A stretch of 64,000 nucleotides of DNA, from contig NZ_SSMC01000001.1 in the NCBI RefSeq assembly GCF_004799345.1, positions 372,001-436,000 of the forward strand, read 5' to 3'. A program made the position numbers and the translations under genes. The DNA is from Robertkochia marina. Lineage in GTDB: Bacteria; Bacteroidota; Bacteroidia; Flavobacteriales; Flavobacteriaceae. This document shows, in pieces, positions 616 to 58,302 of the stretch. The first letter of the stretch is position 1; each line of letters starts with the position of its first letter. The notes beneath the pieces were generated by a model. The model had not been told where the DNA came from and ran no database searches. It saw only the letters and a program-made list of their open reading frames with translations.

Positions 616-667
616 CCTCCTCCGATTCGGTTTCACCGAATCACCTCCTCGTTCAAGGAGGAGGATT
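616..667. repeat. Family E palindromic repeat, copy 1
   Basis: A CCTCCTCC arm is followed by a perfect hairpin (ATTCGGT, loop TTC, ACCGAAT) and then a second palindromic arm (CACCTCCTC, GTTCA, AGGAGGAGG). The copy at 37968 keeps the CACCnCTCCTT..AAGGAGG tail but carries a different hairpin. Confidence 0.65.
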
Positions 668-710: not shown

Positions 711-765
711 ACTCCCCTCCCCCTGAGAGGGGATACCCTGCGGCAAGCAGGGAGGGGAGGGCTGC
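711..765. repeat. Family D palindromic repeat, copy 1
   Basis: ACTCCCCTCCCCCTGAGAGG is followed by GGATACCCTGCGG and then GCAGGGAGGGGAGGGCT. It is related to 18286-18340, which has the same arms with a different centre. The rest of 518-846 holds no gene. Confidence 0.6.
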
Positions 766-11823: not shown

Positions 11824-11884
11824 ACAACCCCTTCCGTCAGCGCCTTCGGCACTGCCACCTTCCCCTAACCAGGGGAAGGAGCCT
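11824..11884. repeat. Family A repeat, right half only (left of DUF559 pseudogene)
   Basis: CAACCCCTTCCGTCAGCG leads into CCTTCCCCTAACCAGGGG and then AAGGAGCC. The core CCCTAACCAG is the exact reverse complement of CTGGTTAGGG in the arm at 12297, on the other side of the DUF559 pseudogene. Confidence 0.7.
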
Positions 11885-11911: not shown

Positions 11912-12266
11912 TTATTTTATCTCTTCTATAACCCATAACGTATAATCAAAAACAAACTTGTTCTCGTATCTAAGAACCGTCATACCTAAACTTTTAAAAT
12001 ATGTGGTTCTTTCCTCATCATAATCTGCAACATCATCATTTTCAAAATGATTCTGTCCATCCAATTCAATGATTAAATATTCCGATGGACAATAAAAATC
12101 AACCACATACTTTCCTATTCCATGCTGTCTTCGAAATTTTCTTCCTTCGAGTTTTTTTTCTTTTGAGAAACCCCCATAAGTAAGTTTCCGCTGGAGTCAT
12201 TCGACTTCTTAAATACTTCCTGAAATCTTTGGAACGATCAGGATTATGAACCTTCTTATTTTCCAT
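11912..12266 (-). pseudogene. DUF559 (Vsr-like endonuclease) gene, frameshifted
   Basis: The reading starts at ATG 12266 (MENKKVHNPDRSKDFRKYL) and runs through RSRMTPAETYLWGFLKRKK. There the frame breaks in a run of eight T (plus strand, 12152-12159; eight A on the coding strand). Dropping one base restores LEGRKFRRQHGIGKYV and joins the open C-terminal part VDFYCPSEYLIIELDG to FDYTLWVIEEIK. The intact homologue is at 15877-16263; over the last 63 residues about 44 are identical by eye. DUF559 proteins resemble very-short-patch-repair endonucleases. A homopolymer sequencing error or a phase-variable run are alternatives to true decay. Confidence 0.8.
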
Positions 12267-12296: not shown

Positions 12297-12430
12297 GGCT
12301 CCTCGCCCTGGTTAGGGCGGGGTGGATCGAGACCTAGTCTCGAGACGGGGTGGGTGGAAATAAGTCTAGTTAAAACAACCCCTTCCGTCTACGCCTAAGT
12401 GTTTCATCCCATGCGCCATCCGGCCCCTTC
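12297..12430. repeat. Family A repeat (right of DUF559 pseudogene)
   Basis: The left arm begins GGCTCCTCGCCCTGGTTAGG. It is followed by a hairpin (TCGAGAC, loop CTA, GTCTCGA), the tail GACGGGGTGGGTGG, then ACAACCCCTTCCGTC and a truncated family C stretch (ATGCGCCATCCGGCCCC). The right terminal arm is missing. Confidence 0.7.
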
Positions 12431-12582: not shown

Positions 12583-15543
12583 CTATTTATACCTCGGGTC
12601 TTCCACATAATCTTCCTTTCGCAATTTGATGACTTCAATACTGAGAAACCCGAATTCGCTGACCACCTTGCCGTAGAGGCGGTAGATGCCCTTCCCCCGG
12701 AAATAATATTTGGCAGCCACCTGCGGAAAGAGGGTACAGTCAAACACCTCCCCGGCCTGATCGATAAAGGTAGCGAAGTTCATCTCCTTGCCGTGCTGGG
12801 TCCTGGTGCGTTTTACCGTAATCAGGTAACCGTAGATATCAATATTCCTGTCTAGAAATTCTTCGAGGTGGGCGGCCCCGTGGTCATTCAGCGGAGCTTC
12901 TTTGAGCAGTTCGAACGGACTGCAAAGGCAGAACCCCAACAGCTCGATCTGGTCAAAGGCCGCTTCCAGATCGGTAGTGGTGAGCACCGGGATGTCGAAA
13001 TTTCGGTGGGGCGGACGAAAAAGGCGCTGCTGGAGTTCGGGCTTCTTACTGACCCCCAGTTTAAAGTGGGCATGCCATAAGAGCTCGTACTTATCGACCC
13101 CGGTAAACCTAAAGGCATTGATACGAATCAGGATAGAGAGCTGCTCGATACCTATAGATACCCGGTCTACAAAATCATCAAGAGAGGTATACTCGCCATC
13201 ACTTTCGCGTTCCCGAACGATCCTTACGGCCGTACGTTCTTCCAGTTCCTGCAGGGCCAGCAGTCCCAGGTAAATATCCTTGCCGCGTATCACATGCTGG
13301 GGCAAACTGCGATTCACACAGGGAGCATGGATCATCCCGCCGAGCATCCGGGCTTCGTGTACATAGATCTCCGTACGGTAAAAACCACCCCCGTTATTAA
13401 GCACCGCCACCATATACTCCAGAGGAAAATAGGCCCTCAAAAAAAGGCTCTGGTAACTCTCCACCGCATAAGAGGCCGAGTGGCCCTTGGCAAAGGCATA
13501 GCCGGCAAAACTGGCCACCTGGTGCCACACCTCCTGTATCAGTTTTTCATCATACCCTTTCTCCCGGCAGTTGCTTACAAACTTATCTTCCACCCGCTTA
13601 AACTCCTCCCGGGATCGGTATTTTCCGCTCATCCCCCGTCGCAGCACATCGGCTTCCCCCAGGGTGAGTCCGGCAAAATGGTGGGCCACCTTGATCACAT
13701 CTTCCTGGTAAACCATGACCCCATAGGTATCGGGCATGATCGACTGCATGACAGGATGAGCCTCCTTACGGCGTTCCGGATTGCGGTGGCGCAGAATATA
13801 CTCCCGCATCATCCCGCTTTTAGACACCCCGGGGCGGATGATGGAACTGGCCGCCACCAGGCTCAAATAATTATCCACTTCCAGTTTTTTTAGCAGCATT
13901 CTCATGGCGGGTGATTCCACATAAAAACACCCCATACACTGGGCCCGGCTTACCATGGTATTGATCTTGCTATCCTGCTTGAGCTTCCGGATATCGTGAA
14001 TATCAAAAAGAGGGGCATCGGGGCGGTTGTCTTCAATAATGGCAATGGCCTCCTTGATCTTGGCGAGTCCGCGCTGGCCGAGGATATCAAATTTATACAA
14101 GCCCACATCCTCCGCGATATGCATGTCGAACTGCACGGTCGGAAATCCCTTAGGCGGCATATTGGTGGCCGAGAAATAATGCAGGGGTTTTTCACTGATC
14201 AGGATGCCGCTGGAATGGATGCTTACATAATTGGGCATGCCGTGGATGAGCTTCCCGTATTTCATCACCAGTTGGGCGGTCTGATCGAGATCTTTCATCA
14301 CCAGACGCTCTTCACACAGGCGGTCGATCTCTTCTTTTGGCAGTCCGAACACCTTACCCAACTCTCGCACTACCCCCCGGTACTGAAAGGTAACGTAGGC
14401 ACCCAAAAGCGATACATTCGGGAAACGCTCAAAGATATAGCGGGTCACATCCTGGCGGTCGCGCCAGGAGAAGTCGATATCAAAATCGGGCGGACTCGTA
14501 CGGTAGAGGTTGATGAAGCGCTCAAAATAGAGGTCGAGCTCCATTGGATCCACATCGGTAATACCCAGCAGGTAGGCCACCACGCTGTTAGCCCCACTAC
14601 CCCGCCCCACATGAAAATATCCCCGGCTTTTGGCATAACTCACAATATCCCAGTTAATGAGGAAATAGGAAACGAAGTTCATCTGACGGATCACCGTAAG
14701 TTCCTTCTCGATACGCTCCCTGATCTCCGGCCCGGCCTCAGGGTATCGGTAGGGCAAACCCTTTTCTGTGAGTTCCTGTAACATTTTCCAGTCATCCTCT
14801 TCGCTGTCTGTATAAGTGCGCTGATTCTGCATAGGCTTGGTATCAGAAAAGTCAAAATCGATACTGCAGGCCTCCATCAGCCTGCGGGTGTTTTCGAGGA
14901 TGAAGGTGTACTCCCTGAAGGCCATGGCCAGGTTAGAAACCGGGTACATGCGTTCGTCTTCTGAGGCCTCTTCACTTTTGGGAAGCTTGCTCAGAAGGAT
15001 GTTATTCCCGATGGCACGAAGCAGTCGGTGGGCATTAAAATCCCTTTTGTTCCTGAAGGTCACCGGTTGCTGCACCACCAGCTTATCGCGATAGTTTTTG
15101 ATATAGCAGGAAAAGGGAAGCTTGCGCAGGTCGGCCACCGAGATCCCGATAAACTCCCTGTCATTGAATTGGGTCATCTCCTCCTCCAGCACTTTTTCAA
15201 AGGGATAGATCACAAAGGCATCTCTGAATTCGGGAGCCTTTTTACCGAAGGACACCTCCCTGTGCAGGTGGTCTGAGAGAAAATTATTGAGCTCATAATA
15301 GCCCTGATTATTGGCTGCCAGGGCTACAAACTCCTGTTTGACCCCGTTCCGGAAATCGATGCCCAGTATGGGACGTATATCGTATTCCGGGGCTTTGCGC
15401 ACAAAATTGAGGCAGGCCGAGGTGTTGTTGATATCGGTCAGGGCAATGCAGCCCGCCTCCATCTCCCGGGCCAGGGCCAGGAGGTCGGTCTCGGAGAAAG
15501 TTCCGAAACGCAGGCTGTAATAGGTGTGGCAATTTAAATACAC
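12583..15543 (-). CDS. DNA polymerase III alpha-type subunit, second/error-prone class (DnaE2-like)
   Basis: The 986-residue C-family polymerase has an N-terminal PHP domain, a palm with GRGSGANS (313-320) and the catalytic PPDFDIDF (Asp353, 355, 357), YKFDILG with the third Asp, and a C-terminal OB fold (IDIYGYLITVKRTR). At about 980 residues it is shorter than replicative DnaE (about 1,160) and lacks a tau-binding tail. In the PHP domain the usual HxH is NCH (Asn4, His6) and TDHGN is TDINN, so metal-dependent proofreading is probably lost. The start is GTG at 15543. A Y-family polymerase follows upstream on the same strand, as in mutasome-like cassettes; no imuA is seen. Confidence 0.88.
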   Translation of the reverse strand: MYLNCHTYYSLRFGTFSETDLLALAREMEAGCIALTDINNTSACLNFVRKAPEYDIRPILGIDFRNGVKQEFVALAANNQGYYELNNFLSDHLHREVSFGKKAPEFRDAFVIYPFEKVLEEEMTQFNDREFIGISVADLRKLPFSCYIKNYRDKLVVQQPVTFRNKRDFNAHRLLRAIGNNILLSKLPKSEEASEDERMYPVSNLAMAFREYTFILENTRRLMEACSIDFDFSDTKPMQNQRTYTDSEEDDWKMLQELTEKGLPYRYPEAGPEIRERIEKELTVIRQMNFVSYFLINWDIVSYAKSRGYFHVGRGSGANSVVAYLLGITDVDPMELDLYFERFINLYRTSPPDFDIDFSWRDRQDVTRYIFERFPNVSLLGAYVTFQYRGVVRELGKVFGLPKEEIDRLCEERLVMKDLDQTAQLVMKYGKLIHGMPNYVSIHSSGILISEKPLHYFSATNMPPKGFPTVQFDMHIAEDVGLYKFDILGQRGLAKIKEAIAIIEDNRPDAPLFDIHDIRKLKQDSKINTMVSRAQCMGCFYVESPAMRMLLKKLEVDNYLSLVAASSIIRPGVSKSGMMREYILRHRNPERRKEAHPVMQSIMPDTYGVMVYQEDVIKVAHHFAGLTLGEADVLRRGMSGKYRSREEFKRVEDKFVSNCREKGYDEKLIQEVWHQVASFAGYAFAKGHSASYAVESYQSLFLRAYFPLEYMVAVLNNGGGFYRTEIYVHEARMLGGMIHAPCVNRSLPQHVIRGKDIYLGLLALQELEERTAVRIVRERESDGEYTSLDDFVDRVSIGIEQLSILIRINAFRFTGVDKYELLWHAHFKLGVSKKPELQQRLFRPPHRNFDIPVLTTTDLEAAFDQIELLGFCLCSPFELLKEAPLNDHGAAHLEEFLDRNIDIYGYLITVKRTRTQHGKEMNFATFIDQAGEVFDCTLFPQVAAKYYFRGKGIYRLYGKVVSEFGFLSIEVIKLRKEDYVEDPRYK

Positions 15544-15665
15544 GGTTATGCAGTTATACAGTTATGCGGTTACGAGGTACGGGGTACGGGTTAAGCCTGT
15601 CTGCCAAGCATGCCAGGTAGATAGGCAGGGGGTTATGGGTAGTCCATAGTTGAAATAACAAAAAT

Positions 15666-15867
15666 GGGCTCCCCGCCCTGGACAGGGAGGGGTGTCTCAG
15701 GATAGAATCCTGAGACGGGGTGGGTTGAACATACATGTGGCAACCATCCACCCCTTCCGTCATCGCCTTCGACACTGCATCCCATGCGCCATCTGGCTCC
15801 TTCGCTAAAATGGTTCACTAAACCATTTCTTCACGCTCGGCCCTCCCTGTCTAGGGGAAGGAGCCCC
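15666..15867. repeat. Family A + C composite, left of intact DUF559 gene
   Basis: The left arm GGCTCCCCGCCCTGGACAGG is followed by a hairpin (CTCAGGAT, AGA, ATCCTGAG) and GACGGGGTGGGTTGA. After CCACCCCTTCCGTC comes a family C module with hairpin AAATGGTT, CACTA, AACCATTT (15808-15828), and the right arm ends TCTAGGGGAAGGAGCC. Positions 15741-15867 are repeated exactly at 16329-16455. Confidence 0.75.
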
Positions 15868-15876
15868 CTTTTATTA

Positions 15877-16263
15877 TTAATCTTTATTAAAATTTTCTTT
15901 TATCTCTTCCAACACCCAGGTTGGATAATCAAACACAAACTTGTTCTCGTACCGAAGAACCCGTATTCCAAGCCTTTCAAAATAAGCGGCTCTTTTTTCA
16001 TCATAGCTTGTCACTTGATCATCTCCAAAATGAACCTCCCCATCTAGTTCAACTATCAAACGCTCTGACGGACAATAGAAATCAACCACATATTTCCCTA
16101 TTCCATGCTGCCTTCGAAACTTCCGTCCTTCCAGCTTTTTACTTTTAAGAAAACCCCATAAATATGTCTCCGCAGGAGTCATCCGTCTCCTTAAAAACCT
16201 CCTGAAGTCTCTGGAGGGATTATGATTATGCAACCTTCTGTTTTTCACACCTATTATTTTCAT
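15877..16263 (-). CDS. DUF559 domain protein, Vsr-like endonuclease fold
   Basis: The intact 128-residue DUF559 protein reads RRRMTPAETYLWGFLKSKKL, then FRRQHGIGKYVVDFYCPSERL, IVELDGEVHF and RVLRYENKFVF. The conserved Asp, Glu-Asp and His residues of this PD-(D/E)XK-like family (VDFYCP, ELDG, HF) are present, so it could be an active nuclease; substrate and role are unproven. It lies between the two polymerase genes and is bracketed by a 127-bp perfect direct repeat of family A/C sequence. A frameshifted relative at 11912-12266 lies in the same kind of repeat setting. Confidence 0.85.
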   Translation of the reverse strand: MKIIGVKNRRLHNHNPSRDFRRFLRRRMTPAETYLWGFLKSKKLEGRKFRRQHGIGKYVVDFYCPSERLIVELDGEVHFGDDQVTSYDEKRAAYFERLGIRVLRYENKFVFDYPTWVLEEIKENFNKD

Positions 16264-16282
16264 TGATTATTTAACCTTAAAG

Positions 16283-16455
16283 GGCTCCCCGCCCTGTCCA
16301 GGGCAGGGTGGGTTGAACACACATGCGACAACCATCCACCCCTTCCGTCATCGCCTTCGACACTGCATCCCATGCGCCATCTGGCTCCTTCGCTAAAATG
16401 GTTCACTAAACCATTTCTTCACGCTCGGCCCTCCCTGTCTAGGGGAAGGAGCCCC
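16283..16455. repeat. Family A + C composite, right of intact DUF559 gene
   Basis: The left arm GGCTCCCCGCCCTGTCCAGG runs directly into GGGTGGGTTGAAC; the inner hairpin found in other copies is missing, as if lost between two GGTGG stretches. 16329-16455 is identical to 15741-15867, including the AAATGGTT/AACCATTT hairpin. The rest of the gap to the dinB stop at 16544 shows nothing. Confidence 0.75.
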
Positions 16456-16543
16456 TTATTTTTTCACACTTTTACTCATCCACAATTCATAATCCATCAT
16501 TCATAATTAATCCCGCAGCGCGGGATTCCCGACTCACCACTAA

Positions 16544-17758
16544 CTATTGTTTCCGATGCGCCAGCACGGGTGGCGGCTGCCCGTTAAACGGATTATACAT
16601 ACGACCGATAGTTCGGGCATCCATGGCGGCGGCACGGAGCACACTGCGTTCGCCGAAGCGTTCCCGGATCTTGTCCATTGCGTGATAGAGGTTGAGACGT
16701 TCCTGGGTATCATCAAAAAGGTCGATCTGGTAATTACCCCCTACCAGGTGACTAAAGCGCACTCCGATAAGACGCACCAACAGCCGCCTGTTGTACAGCT
16801 TATCAAAAAGGTCAAGGATGGTCGGAATCAAAACATGGTCGGCACTGGTATACGGGATACGCAACTGTTTGGTATAGGTATTAAAGTCAGAGTACCGCAC
16901 CTTGACCGCCACGCAGGCCGTAAGCTTATTGCCTCTTCGCAGCTGAAAGGCCAGGTTCTCGGTCATAGCCGTGAGGATACCCCTGAGTTTGGCCACATCA
17001 ATGGTATCCTTATCAAAGGTTCGCTCGGTAGAAATGGACTTGCGTTCATTGAAAGGGATCACAGGAGAGGTATCGATCCCGTTGGCCCGGTCCCAGATAG
17101 TCACCCCGTTCATGCCCAGTACCGAATGCATCATATCCCGCGGCATTTCCTGTATGGTCTTTACCTGCTTGAGCCCCAGGTTTCGCAGGGTCTGATAGGT
17201 CTTATCGCCCACCATGGGGATCTTCCTGATCGACAACGGAGCGAGGAAGGGCTTTTCAAATCCGTAGTCGATCTTGAGCTGGTTGTTGGGTTTGGCCTCG
17301 TTGGTGGCCACCTTAGAGACCACCTTATTCACCGAGAGTCCGAAGGAGATCGGCAGACCTGTTTCCTTGATAATGGTATGGCGCAGCTCGGAGGCATATT
17401 TATAACAGCCAAAGAACCGGTCCATCCCCGAGAGGTCGGCATAGAACTCATCGATACTCGACTTTTCAAAGAGGGGTACCTGCTCCTTGATAATATCGGT
17501 GACCATATCAGAGTGCTTACTGTACACCCCGGCATTTCCACGGATGACCACGGCCTCCGGACACAGCTGCTTGGCCATTTTCATCGGCATACCCGAGTGC
17601 ACCCCAAAGGCCCGGGTCTCATACGAACAGGCGGCCACCACCCCACGATCGCTGGTGCCACCCACCAGTAAGGGTCTCTTTTTCAACCTGCTGTCGATGA
17701 GGCGCTCTACCGACACATAAAAGGTATCGAGGTCGAGATGAAGAATGGTCCTGCTCAT
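16544..17758 (-). CDS. dinB: Y-family DNA polymerase (DNA polymerase IV, DinB-like)
   Basis: Translesion polymerase. From the ATG at 17758 it reads MSRTILHLDLDTFYVSVERL, with metal-binding Asp9 and the catalytic SSIDEFYADLSG (Asp103, Glu104). The steric-gate region FYVSVE and the helix-hairpin-helix thumb (KIPMVGDKTYQTLRNLGLK) are intact, and a little-finger domain follows to residue 404. The frame can be extended to a TTG at 17779 but the ATG looks right. No clear beta-clamp motif was checked. It is on the same strand as the DnaE2-like polymerase and probably works with it, although about 1 kb of repeats and a DUF559 gene now separate them. Confidence 0.9.
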   Translation of the reverse strand: MSRTILHLDLDTFYVSVERLIDSRLKKRPLLVGGTSDRGVVAACSYETRAFGVHSGMPMKMAKQLCPEAVVIRGNAGVYSKHSDMVTDIIKEQVPLFEKSSIDEFYADLSGMDRFFGCYKYASELRHTIIKETGLPISFGLSVNKVVSKVATNEAKPNNQLKIDYGFEKPFLAPLSIRKIPMVGDKTYQTLRNLGLKQVKTIQEMPRDMMHSVLGMNGVTIWDRANGIDTSPVIPFNERKSISTERTFDKDTIDVAKLRGILTAMTENLAFQLRRGNKLTACVAVKVRYSDFNTYTKQLRIPYTSADHVLIPTILDLFDKLYNRRLLVRLIGVRFSHLVGGNYQIDLFDDTQERLNLYHAMDKIRERFGERSVLRAAAMDARTIGRMYNPFNGQPPPVLAHRKQ

Positions 17759-17823
17759 TTTGAATGGAATTTTTCCCAAAATTAGGAATTATTCCAATAT
17801 GGTGGGGTGTCAAATTTGTTAAA

Positions 17824-18285: not shown

Positions 18286-18340
18286 ACTCCTCTCCCTTCG
18301 GGAGGGGAAAGCAACACCATTGGTTTTGCAGGGGAGGGCT
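18286..18340. repeat. Family D palindromic repeat, copy 2
   Basis: ACTCCTCTCCC, TTC, GGGAGGGGA is followed by a small centre and GCAGGGGAGGGCT, the same arms as 711-765. Confidence 0.6.
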
Positions 18341-22341: not shown

Positions 22342-22495
22342 GGCTCCCCGCCCTGGACAGGGAGGGGTGGAGCGAGACTTCGTCTCGATCCGGGGTGGGT
22401 TGAAATAAGCATAAATTATACAACCCCTTCCGTCCCCGACTCCTCGCTGACTCTCGATAGCCGGCGCCACCTTCCCCTGACCAGGGGAAGGCACC
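22342..22495. repeat. Family A repeat, full length
   Basis: GGCTCCCCGCCCTGGACAGG is followed by a hairpin (CGAGAC, TTC, GTCTCG) and CCGGGGTGGGTTGA. Then come ACAACCCCTTCCGTC and the right arm CCTTCCCCTGACCAGGGG, which ends AAGGCACC instead of AAGGAGCC. The remainder of 22196-22573 holds no gene. Confidence 0.75.
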
Positions 22496-24397: not shown

Positions 24398-24450
24398 AAT
24401 TACATTAATTGGTGGGGTTCACGACCCCGATTATTAATTTTTTGAGGGTG

Positions 24451-37850: not shown

Positions 37851-37967
37851 TCATAAGGGCAATAATTCATATTTATCATCTATAATCCTTCCTGCAGAGC
37901 AGGATCAAACTACTCCCCACTAACGACTAACCATTAACTACCCCAATCTTCGTACCTTCGTAAAAAC

Positions 37968-38024
37968 CACCCCGCCTCCCGATAGTTATCGGGACAGGCA
38001 CCCCTCCTTAAGAAGGAGGGGGGA
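37968..38024. repeat. Family E palindromic repeat, copy 2
   Basis: The hairpin CCCGATA, GT, TATCGGG is followed by CACCCCTCCTT, AAG, AAGGAGGGG. The tail matches 641-667 but the hairpin is different. Confidence 0.65.
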
Positions 38025-40020: not shown

Positions 40021-40060
40021 CGTCATTGCGAGGAGGGCAAAGCCCGACGTGGCAATCTCC
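40021..40060. repeat. Family B palindromic repeat, inverted
   Basis: CGTCATTGCGAG and ACGTGGCAATCTCC arms enclose a hairpin GGGC, AAA, GCCC. Confidence 0.7.
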
Positions 40061-40215: not shown

Positions 40216-40284
40216 ATTTATGGATTATGAATGATAGATTTACGATCATATCTAGGGCTCAGAATTTCACCCTTATCGCCATGG

Positions 40285-40345
40285 CCCCATCTGGCCCCTT
40301 CACTAAAAACAGCCACCGGCTGTTTTTTTAACGTTCGGTCCTACC
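40285..40345. repeat. Family C hairpin module
   Basis: CCATCTGGCCCCTTCACT precedes the hairpin AAAAACAGCC, ACC, GGCTGTTTTT (40305-40327) and AACGTTCGGTCCT follows. The module is shared with 50745-50808. The hairpin with T-run could also end transcription. Confidence 0.7.
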
Positions 40346-40388
40346 ACTGAAGGATTTAGATTCTCTGTTGAAAAAAATTATAAAATGT

Positions 40389-40528
40389 GGCTCCCCACCC
40401 TGGACAGGGCGGGGTGGATCAAGGTGAAACCTTGAGACGGGGCGGGTTGATTCAGGTAATCTTCACATACAACCCCTTCCCCTCTTGCTTTCAGCAAGAG
40501 TACCTTCCCCTGACCAGGGGAAGGAGCC
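40389..40528. repeat. Family A repeat, full length (140 bp)
   Basis: The left arm is GGCTCCCCACCCTGGACAGG. Hairpin 1 is TCAAGGT, GAA, ACCTTGA; the inner arms are GACGGGGCGGGTTGA and CAACCCCTTCC; hairpin 2 is CTCTTGCT, TTC, AGCAAGAG; the right arm ends CAGGGGAAGGAGCC. It is preceded by TATAAAATGT. Confidence 0.8.
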
Positions 40529-50491: not shown

Positions 50492-50631
50492 GGCTCCCCA
50501 CCCTGGTCAGGGAGGGGTGGATCGAGACAAAGTCTCGAGACGGGGTGGGTTGATTCGGGTTATCTTCACATACAACCCCTTCCCCTCTTGCTTGCAGCAA
50601 GAGTACCTTCCCCTGACCAGGGGAAGGAGCC
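50492..50631. repeat. Family A repeat, full length (140 bp), best-preserved copy
   Basis: The left terminal arm starts GGCTCCCCACCCTGGTCAGG. Hairpin 1 is TCGAGAC, AAA, GTCTCGA. Inner inverted arms are GGGGTGGGTTG and CAACCCCTTCC. Hairpin 2 is CTCTTGCT, TGC, AGCAAGAG. The right arm is CCTTCCCCTGACCAGGGG then AAGGAGCC, an imperfect inverted copy of the left arm. Confidence 0.85.
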
Positions 50632-50734: not shown

Positions 50735-50812
50735 TCCCGAACAGCTAGCGCGCCAGCTGGCCCCTTCACTAAAAACAGCCATTGGCTGTTTTATTAACGT
50801 TCGGTCCTGTGA
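50735..50812. repeat. Family C hairpin module
   Basis: GCGCCAGCTGGCCCC and TTCACT precede the hairpin AAAACAGCC, ATT, GGCTGTTTT (50772-50792), followed by AACGTTCGGTCCT. The loop and the first stem base pair differ from 40305. Confidence 0.7.
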
Positions 50813-56965: not shown

Positions 56966-58302
56966 TATCGGTTAAATGTAAGTCGCTTAACGCGTCGTTC
57001 TTTTGAGAATTGACCGTTATTATAGGCCAGGTTTCCATTAAGGAAGGTATGGGTAACCCTGCTGCTAAAGCGGGTTCCTTCAAACGGTGACCACTGACAT
57101 TTATAAAGAATATTGCTTTTATCTACCGTCCAGCTTTCATTGAGGTCTACCAGGATAAGATCGGCAAAATACCCTTCCCGAATATAACCGCGCTTCTCTA
57201 TATCGAAGAGAATGGCCGGGTTGTGGCTCATTTTCTGCACCAGTTTCTCCATACTTATCCTGCCTTCCTTATGTTTTTCAAGCAAAGCGGCAAGGGTATG
57301 CTGTACCAGGGGGCCACCTGAGGGCGCCTGGGTATAGACATTTTCTTTTTCTTCTAAGGTATGAGGTGCGTGATCGGTAGCAATAATATCAATGCGATCA
57401 TCAAGCAGGGCATCCCAAAGGGCATCCCGGTCGGCAGCAGTTTTTACGGCCGGATTCCACTTGATAAAAGTTCCTTTTTTAGCGTAATCGGCATCAGAGA
57501 ACCAGAGGTGATGTGTACATACCTCGGCGGTGATCTTTTTCTCTTCCAGCGGAATGTCATTTCTGAACAACTCCGTCTCTTTTCCGGTAGAGACGTGGAA
57601 CACATGCAGGCGGGCCCCGGTTTTCTTCGCCAATGCTATAGCCCTGGAAGAAGAAAGGTAACAAGCCTCTTCGCTTCTGATCAGGGGATGATTTTCAATA
57701 GGGATATCATCGCCGAACCGCTCTTGGTATATCCGGAGATTTTCCCGAATGGTTGCTTCATCTTCGCAGTGGGTCGAGATCACCAGATCGGTACTCTTAA
57801 AGATGTTCTCAAGAACCTGTTCATCATCAACCAGCATATTTCCCGTTGAGGAACCAAGAAACAGTTTGATTCCGGCACAGGCTCGAGGATCGAGTTTCTT
57901 CAGTTCTTCCAGGTTATCGTTGGTACCTCCGAACATAAACGAATAGTTGGCAAAAGAGGTATTTCTTGCGATCTCCATCTTCTCTTCCAGGCGTTCAATA
58001 CTAACGGTCTGAGGGTTGGTATTGGGTTGCTCTATAAAGGTGGTTACCCCTCCGGCAATGGCTGCACGGCTTTCGGTAGCAATATTCCCCTTATGGGTAA
58101 GTCCGGGTTCGCGAAAGTGCACCTGATCGTCAATGATCCCGGGAAGCAGGTATTTACCTTCGGCATCAATAACCTCATCGGCTTTATCTGCGCTGATCTC
58201 TGAGGCGATCTCAACGATGTATTCATTCTCAATAAGCAGATCACCCTTGGTGATCTTTTGCTCATTTACGATGTTCGCATTCTTGATAAGTATTTTGCTC
58301 AT
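56965..58302 (-). CDS. pyrC: Dihydroorotase
   Basis: Zinc amidohydrolase of pyrimidine synthesis, 445 residues, class I size. The carbamylated-Lys region is ACAGIKLFLGSSTG, with later ligands in STHCEDEA, LHVFHVST and IIATDHAPH. The first metal motif, usually DxHxH, is DDQVHFREPG, with Gln60 in place of the first His. I believe this variant is common in Bacteroidota, but it should be confirmed. Its first 41 bases overlap the end of the glycosyltransferase gene upstream. Confidence 0.88.
   Translation of the reverse strand: MSKILIKNANIVNEQKITKGDLLIENEYIVEIASEISADKADEVIDAEGKYLLPGIIDDQVHFREPGLTHKGNIATESRAAIAGGVTTFIEQPNTNPQTVSIERLEEKMEIARNTSFANYSFMFGGTNDNLEELKKLDPRACAGIKLFLGSSTGNMLVDDEQVLENIFKSTDLVISTHCEDEATIRENLRIYQERFGDDIPIENHPLIRSEEACYLSSSRAIALAKKTGARLHVFHVSTGKETELFRNDIPLEEKKITAEVCTHHLWFSDADYAKKGTFIKWNPAVKTAADRDALWDALLDDRIDIIATDHAPHTLEEKENVYTQAPSGGPLVQHTLAALLEKHKEGRISMEKLVQKMSHNPAILFDIEKRGYIREGYFADLILVDLNESWTVDKSNILYKCQWSPFEGTRFSSRVTHTFLNGNLAYNNGQFSKERRVKRLTFNR

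Follow-up and report, generated by a model that had tools for sequence, protein, structure and literature searches.

Intrastrand triplex repeats were first described around 2000. To our knowledge, they are known from E. coli, cyanobacteria and many bacteria without a known enzyme or means of spread. The bacterial repeats of this kind named TMECO and PIT were treated by Holder et al. (2015), who cite earlier work by Hoyne and Maher (PMC4666352, a source available only in part). In the available part, the loop length permitted in the published searches was 1-6 nt for Holder and 0-10 nt for Hoyne, and Holder et al. report no association with mobile elements and no correlation with the functions of neighbouring genes. 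Two other systems of folded repeats bear comparison, each again known here from part of its source. REP sequences with their RAYT enzymes, and the REPINs, have short folded ends, inverted pairs, many gene-less copies and a single small enzyme whose substrate would be folded single strands (PMC6006769). CGTC-tagged REPs carry a CGTC tag, an 8-9 bp stem starting with A-T pairs and a 4-5 nt loop (PMC3733652).

The repeat units described here (family A and its relatives) resemble TMECO and PIT, as far as the available text describes these, in possessing a pyrimidine arm, a purine arm and a G-rich third strand that follow the antiparallel purine-motif code. Like them, the units are multi-copy, intergenic and partly arranged in inverted pairs, and TMECO/PIT second loops such as TTA and CCG also occur at the DUF559 loci studied here. 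They differ in that the second loop is a hairpin of variable sequence, 19-38 nt long. They appear to work like the REP/RAYT system, but another enzyme family accompanies them, a triplex-code tail is present and the hairpin sequence is not conserved, again by comparison with what could be consulted of that system. Family A shares with CGTC-tagged REPs the letters CGTC and CCA beside the palindrome; however, the stem and loop rules are unmet and the tag is inconstant.

Architecture of the repeat units

The window is a stretch of 64,000 nucleotides from Robertkochia marina (genome G000; G001 to G004 are other members of the genus). The named copy of family A lies in the spacer (15543-16544) between two genes, 12583-15543 and 16544-17779, which Pfam identifies as DNA polymerase III alpha-like and Y-family polymerase genes and between which the elements and a DUF559 gene are found. 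We take the flanking genes to be dnaE2-like and imuB-like, a DNA-damage mutagenesis pair. The features of the window are listed below; paired mismatch counts are Watson-Crick and triplex-code, in that order.

15660..15865, + strand: family A element on the dnaE2-like side of the DUF559 gene, ends approximate
15671..15724, + strand: triplex-code unit of the named copy, with pyrimidine arm CCCCGCCCTG, loop GA, purine arm CAGGGAGGGG, hairpin loop and tail GGGGTGGG; 1 Watson-Crick and 0 triplex-code mismatches
15695..15715, + strand: variable hairpin of the named copy, 9 bp stem and 3-nt loop
15877..16263, - strand: DUF559 gene, 128 aa, no internal stop, Pfam PF04480 E=4.1e-30
16283..16455, + strand: second family A element, across the DUF559 gene from the first; ends approximate, hairpin lost
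11828..11879, - strand: triplex-code unit of right-half type, loop TGGCAGTGCCGAAGGCGCTGAC; 0 and 0 mismatches
11912..12163, - strand: broken DUF559 remnant between two family A pieces, one stop inside
12301..12354, + strand: triplex-code unit, hairpin CGAGAC/GTCTCG; 1 and 1 mismatch
22346..22399, + strand: triplex-code unit, hairpin CGAGAC/GTCTCG; 1 and 0 mismatches
22424..22491, - strand: inverted partner unit, 38-nt second loop; 0 and 0 mismatches
37966..38021, - strand: B-type unit CCCCTCCTT..AAGGAGGGG (TGCCTGTCCCGATAACTATCGGGAGGC) GGGGTGGT, from scan and folding
40393..40446, + strand: triplex-code unit, hairpin CAAGGT/ACCTTG; 1 and 1 mismatch
40473..40524, - strand: inverted partner unit, hairpin CTCTTGCT/AGCAAGAG; 0 and 0 mismatches
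50496..50549, + strand: triplex-code unit, hairpin CGAGAC/GTCTCG; 1 and 0 mismatches
50576..50627, - strand: inverted partner unit, hairpin CTCTTGCT/AGCAAGAG, from scan and folding
18288..18337, + strand: further candidate unit TCCTCTCCC..GGGAGGGGA (21 nt) AGGGGAGG, from the free-arm scan
713..760, + strand: further candidate unit; 1 and 1 mismatch
616..664, - strand: further candidate unit, loop TGATTCGGTGAAACCGAATC; 1 and 1 mismatch

The order within a unit is pyrimidine arm, loop, purine arm, variable hairpin and G-rich tail. Read antiparallel, the tail matches the purine arm, with G opposite G and T or A opposite A (G·G:C, T·A:T, A·A:T). This rule is the published antiparallel purine-motif triplex code, as set out in the accessible part of PMC4666352. 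A window scan with free arms returned 14 units, whereas 20 shuffles gave 0.7 on average and never more than 3; nine of the units have no triplex-code mismatch and five have one, and none has more than one Watson-Crick mismatch. They include the five left units at the hairpin copies and four right-half units. Of the latter, those at 22424, 40473 and 50576 each pair with a left unit, and the one at 11828 adjoins the DUF559 remnant. All 14 have second loops of 19-38 nt (scan range 1-40), so that none meets the published limits of 1-6 and 0-10 nt. A scan unit at 57540-57596 (- strand) lies inside a long ORF, is probably a chance match and was excluded from the list.

Since the tail follows the purine arm by the triplex code, the variable hairpin fits the place of the second loop of an intrastrand triplex repeat, although triplex formation in cells is an inference from the letters. 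DNA folding, with a program that does not score triplexes, placed the two hairpins next to each other in the units at 15671, 37966 and 50576, three of the five tested. The first hairpin was shifted at 40393, while at 50496 pairing of the pyrimidine arm with the tail gave the lowest energy. Rfam at the gathering cutoff had no match at the units; its sole match in the window is the S16-Flavobacteria ribosomal protein leader at 24404-24438, an ordinary feature.

Turnover of the variable hairpin

The original prediction was that the family A hairpin changes sequence between copies while its base pairing is kept. On direct check of the sequence, the five copies stand at the places named, with differing stems and intact pairing. 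Only the position of the named hairpin needed correction by one or two bases: the 21-nt hairpin, TCTCAGGAT-AGA-ATCCTGAGA, occupies 15695-15715 and not 15697-15716. The 21-nt loops of the four other copies start at 12325, 22370, 40417 and 50520. A sixth copy (16283-16310), in which the hairpin is lost and a single GGGTG is left, had gone unmentioned, and so had the right-half hairpins.

The flank pattern GGGGTGN{6,36}CGGGGYGGKT matches six places in the window and none in 100 shuffles. Across the 3.58 Mb genome, the flanks GGGGTG...CGGGGYGGKT give 59 matches, against 0 for the reversed pattern, and 40 distinct loops lie among these matches. The flanks are of two types: A has GGCTCCCC.CCCTGGNCAGGG before the hairpin and GGGTTGA after it, while B has CCCCTCCTT..AAGGA before and GGTT after. 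Both types hold hairpins of many sequences, and the same hairpin kinds occur in both. Merging identical near flanks reduces the 59 matches to 58 entries, two of which read one tandem array in longer, overlapping form; the 34 B entries include both, and the B loop count leaves them out. With this merging, the 24 family A copies have 15 distinct loops (three with four copies each, 12 seen once) and 32 copies of the sister type B have 25. Because of this diversity, an explanation by one or two fixed subfamilies, which would have refuted the prediction, fails.

The loops also fold. The mean longest stem of the 40 distinct loops is 5.67, against 2.73 when shuffled (29/40 with p<0.05); loop GTCGCACCAACGGCTTGAG has a weak stem only. 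In the genus relatives, the flank pattern matches four places without a clear hairpin (3/10 in G002 and 1/12 in G003). Beyond the genus, the pattern AAGGAGGGGTG..CGGGGTGGTT is sparse, being present in 6/120 family genomes and 11/395 phylum genomes (G000 counted in both); units elsewhere therefore use other arm letters.

Covariation was assessed with an APC-corrected G test against substitutions randomly re-placed on a tree. The alignment comprised 22 distinct 21-nt hairpins, 18 of this genome (all its 21-nt loops) and four of the genus (three flank-pattern matches and one from an orthologous site). Four of the nine stem pairs covary at E<0.05, compared with 0/201 of the other column pairs, so the lack of covariation that would have refuted the prediction was not obtained. 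All four Watson-Crick pairs are used at stem position 6/16; of the five stem pairs that remain, those at the two outer positions are often open and the others hardly vary. Pair counting on the same 22 loops gave 85.4% of cells paired and a covariation score of 0.564, compared with 0.233 when shuffled and at most 0.132 with slid partners. Two cruder pair-counting measures (pairs changed on both sides; further pair types) do not exceed shuffles. On the strength of the covariation and the pair counting, the claim of sequence change that preserves pairing holds, and the stems vary on both strands in a compensatory way in the five copies and across the 22 loops. That pairing and not sequence is conserved in the hairpin is likewise supported by covariation and by loop folding against shuffles. 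This reading was incomplete, as the hairpin is a loop within a larger unit whose flanks are more strongly conserved than the hairpin itself.

A stem could be scored in 74 of 86 loops, and mismatches inside these stems are few, at 14/455 pair positions. The 86-loop set omits the four genus matches without a clear hairpin (three in G002, one in G003), and its phylum loops are those among the matches listed; the 12 loops below the hairpin score have mostly 2-bp stems. In three loop pairs the only difference is one base pair, changed with full compensation; in nine it is a single stem base, which in six of the nine lies at one of the two outer positions. The excess of G.T over A.C mismatches on the G-rich strand (6 to 1, p=0.125) is not significant as a marker of one active strand.

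The spacer between the dnaE2-like and imuB-like genes is observed in both filled and empty states within the genus. It holds element, DUF559 gene and element in G000 and G002, a single element in G001, and none in G003 and G004, where the spacers are 44 and 93 bp. The hairpin on the dnaE2-like side is TCTCAGGAT/ATCCTGAGA in G000, GATCAGGAC/GTCCTGAGA in G002 and ACAGCGAT/ATCGCTGA in G001, with flanks alike; orthology of the G001 copy rests on position and shared flank letters. This spacer is the only informative orthologous-hairpin site in the genus. By eye, no family A element was seen in ig12, ig22 and ig40 of the relatives inspected (excluding G001 ig12 and G004 ig40).

DUF559 genes and their flanking palindromes

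The window ORF at 15877-16263 (- strand) matches PF04480 with 104.3 bits, against a curated cutoff of 20.6. Its product matches PDB 3hrl (endonuclease-like, E=4.9e-17), is 39% identical to E. coli YcjD and 80% identical to a homologue in the genus Robertkochia; a match to NCBIfam PRK09767 is below the model cutoff (77 vs 218 bits). YcjD has been placed in the PD-(D/E)XK superfamily, and Vsr was found by its profile, according to the accessible part of PMC1189080. An alignment of ten DUF559 members of several groups has 16 invariant columns, including D61 and E72. Nuclease activity of the window protein is inferred, with these conserved acidic residues as its only support.

The genome has five DUF559 matches, and most of its units have no adjoining DUF559 gene (59 pattern matches). 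The DUF559 gene at C1:1287619 adjoins three B units in tandem, each with a different hairpin, and has another unit downstream. Two neighbouring DUF559 genes, L222 and L224 (G000:C2:558478 and 558938), are flanked by a palindrome of another type, CATTTCC..CCCTTTAGGG..GGAAATG.

DUF559 loci elsewhere have pyrimidine-first palindromes at their sides, for example CCCCTCC..GGAGGGG. The association is observed in several phyla: loci come from Chlorobiota, Patescibacteria, Acidobacteria, Anaerolineaceae, Proteobacteria, Clostridia and others. A palindrome lies within 250 nt on either side at 29/31 loci, compared with 92/1829 (5%) control placements elsewhere in the same loci, and on both sides at 19/31 loci compared with 2/1829. 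No unit was found at the other 2/31 loci, or at 3/32 when L101 is included; this locus, 95 nt from a contig end, is left out of the 31, and with it the count is 29/32. These figures use match bounds for the gene (19 both, 29 either of 31), and extended reading frames give 13 and 27.

A second Bacteroidota sample of 29 loci gave a triplex-tail unit within 250 nt at 16/19 stand-alone DUF559 genes, compared with a palindrome alone in 26/607 control placements. No unit was found within 250 nt at L232, L242 and L249. Three of the 19 loci are cut at a contig end, and the gene position was confirmed as assumed. For DUF559 domains in long frames, units were found at 9/10 loci, against 33/350 controls; L225 has no unit by the strict rule, though palindrome-like ends are visible.

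The arm-tail code was observed at these loci as well, where the tail follows the palindrome after a few nucleotides or after a longer, often hairpin-forming loop. For 65 palindromes at 29/32 DUF559 loci, the mean code match is 0.945, compared with 0.782 for order-permuted arms, 0.810 for a parallel reading and 0.66 for Watson-Crick pairing; 36 are perfect, and 61 have at most one triplex-code mismatch. The pyrimidine arm comes first in 64/65. In this test the better-scoring flank of each palindrome was picked with the code itself, a choice shared by the permuted control. Because the first register had been chosen with the same code, the register was set again by G:G matches alone, keeping the flank strand of the first test. 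The letter opposite a purine-arm A is then T or A in 92.6% of cases, whereas 200 permuted sets average 56.2% and reach 61.9% at most.

Within the window's own genome, 25/34 B and 9/24 A entries match all nine tail positions. These entries are weaker evidence for the code because the search pattern fixed the G runs of the tail; the DUF559-locus tests, in which G runs were not fixed, are independent evidence. The arms form a pyrimidine-first Watson-Crick hairpin with at most one mismatch in 28/34 B and 22/24 A entries. Family A units are imperfect, with one Watson-Crick mismatch, central in the arms, in 21/24 and a C opposite A in the tail in 11/24, and clostridial units also fit the code less well. 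Near DUF559 genes, the second loop is shorter than 9 nt in 29/65 units (TTA, CA, CTG, TTG, TGA, CTA and others) and at least 9 nt in 36/65. The 32 distinct loops of at least 9 nt have a mean longest stem of 4.41, compared with 2.59 when shuffled (17/32 with p<0.05).

Several DUF559 domains stand in frame inside long, mostly conserved host genes. By Pfam, they lie between domains of LeuRS (L225, L241 and L244, at two different places in the protein), MetH (L233 and L238, same place), RecG (L247) and HsdR (L227); in HsdM (L230), the domain lies behind the methylase domain. The frame at L226 is less clear, with a weak MmeI-like methylase match. This domain scan covered nine of the ten long frames, without L243, and triplex-code repeats lie within 250 nt at 8/9 of the scanned loci (not L225, by the strict rule).

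At the LeuRS site of one genus, filled and empty forms were observed side by side: the cassette is present in G176 and 4/18 relatives, 13 have a 34-nt linker, and one has a 40-nt spacer resembling the left end of the cassette. The 18 relatives are those compared among 23 matching genomes besides G176, with G514, G522, G528, G529 and G530 outside the comparison. The repeats flanking DUF559 resemble the termini of a mobile element that has been little studied.

The DUF559 gene of E. coli K-12, ycjD, has a repeat that conforms to the published TMECO pattern ~165 nt downstream (L219:1705-1743), and a partial TMECO-like repeat overlaps the ycjD end near L219:1895-1924.

A proposed folded-end cassette and competing explanations

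Family A copies are probably inverted intrastrand-triplex units that bound DUF559 mobile cassettes or derive from them. The G-rich strand, when single, would fold into an intrastrand purine-motif triple helix: the pyrimidine arm would pair with the purine arm as a first hairpin, the strand would turn through the second loop, which is the variable hairpin, and the G/T/A tail would lie antiparallel on the purine arm by reverse-Hoogsteen pairing. It is proposed that the hairpin can vary in its letters since it has only to provide a compact turn, and that arms and tail are conserved for their part in the triplex or for recognition by a protein. The units would bound, or derive from, small mobile cassettes encoding a DUF559 protein (PD-(D/E)XK, Vsr-like). 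This putative nuclease may recognise the ends when they are folded in single-stranded DNA, at replication forks for instance, and cut there; copying to new places would then involve the whole cassette or, for most family A copies, only its ends. RAYT is thought to act on REPs in like manner. By analogy with RAYT and REPINs, the simplest account is a mobile cassette made of DUF559 and folded ends, with many derived ends that lack the gene.

Both the cutting and the route of movement are inferences, as is the triplex in cells. Against the last stands the absence of a stable triplex in E. coli in vivo footprints: in the available part of PMC4666352, a related short-loop motif formed a triplex in vitro, and none was seen in double-stranded form or by DMS footprint in cells. 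The central mismatch of the family A arms, the poorer fit of clostridial units, the DUF559 genes without a unit and the many units of this genome without a DUF559 gene also tell against the cassette account.

Why the pairing is kept is likewise a matter of inference and remains undecided between selection and templating, as both fit. It is a real, though tentative, possibility that a templated process keeps it instead of selection, either through strand switching that copies one arm or through a hairpin swap via the identical GGGGTG/CGGGG flanks. Such a process concerns only why the loop pairs and is compatible with the triplex units as cassette ends. Templating is favoured a little by the low mismatch load (14/455 pair positions) and by the same hairpin kinds occurring in both flank types; the different hairpins within one tandem array and at one orthologous site, and the copy at 16283-16310 with its single GGGTG in place of the hairpin, also agree with it. 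The half-changed stems, with nine one-base against three whole-pair differences, instead favour selection for a compact turn a little, yet six of the nine differences sit at the often-open outer positions.

Other readings compete with the cassette account. The four G runs around the family A hairpin (GGG-A-GGGG ... GGGG-T-GGG) could build a G-quadruplex whose central loop holds a duplex hairpin, the A and T positions being incidental. We regard this as unlikely and set it aside because of the A/T register, in which T or A stands opposite a purine-arm A in 92.6% of cases against 56.2% in permuted sets; in addition, the tail tracks the order of the arm and not G content alone, and the pyrimidine arm comes first in 64/65 palindromes. 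The stem covariation and the 6 to 1 excess of G.T over A.C mismatches on the G-rich strand would also suit an RNA signal, a terminator or processing site under ordinary compensatory selection and unconnected with mobility. There is rather little to recommend this idea, however: the asymmetry is not significant (p=0.125), a G-rich tail without a T run follows the hairpin, the units have no Rfam match at the gathering cutoff, and DUF559 domains that stand in frame within genes have related units no more than 250 nt away. Related triplex repeats also lacked promoter or terminator activity in E. coli, as far as the accessible part of PMC4666352 goes. That the copies are CGTC-tagged REP elements moved by unknown means, with DUF559 a chance neighbour, was the first idea, as the opposite strand of family A has CGTC before the palindrome and CCA after it, in the manner described in the part of PMC3733652 that was available. 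This identity was dropped since neither the tag rule nor the stem rule holds: the CGTC letters are missing from many B-type copies, stems are 2-9 bp instead of 8-9, and loops are 3-4 nt instead of 4-5. As the DUF559 association is also far above control, it is now very improbable.

The unit is a new kind of intrastrand triplex repeat variant, and the link of triplex repeats to DUF559 is new as far as searched. No paper combining DUF559 and triplex was found in the literature searched, which left out preprints and most subscription journals, and within it no title or abstract opening on DUF559 concerned such repeats. The portion of the main triplex paper that was available contains neither 'DUF' nor 'endonuclease' (PMC4666352).

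With triplex units as the ends of DUF559 cassettes, a broader proposal becomes possible, towards which we lean with some reserve: DUF559 proteins may be the missing enzymes of the bacterial intrastrand triplex repeats. The two would form a joint mobile class in many phyla, with ends read as folded triple helices, in-frame insertion into essential genes possible, and a hairpin loop turning over with its pairing kept. A palindrome near 29/31 loci of one small nuclease family offers a direct and cheap test of the purpose of these repeats. If the proposal is true, it adds a class of mobile element whose ends are read as a three-stranded DNA fold, it explains why the inner hairpin can alter its sequence, and the in-frame cassettes in LeuRS, MetH and RecG explain odd insertions in essential proteins.

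The window holds two further kinds of repeat. A second repeat family, GCGCCATCTGGC...TTCGCTAAAA...CGGCCCT, occurs at 15786-15844, 16374-16432, 40284-40342 and 50750-50808, and its central hairpin also changes letters with pairing kept (AAATGGTT/AACCATTT vs AAAACAGCC/GGCTGTTTT). The repeat CGTCATTGCGAG...GGCAATCTC at 40021-40060, a few hundred bases ahead of the element at 40382, is presumably of a kind found in many bacterial genomes.
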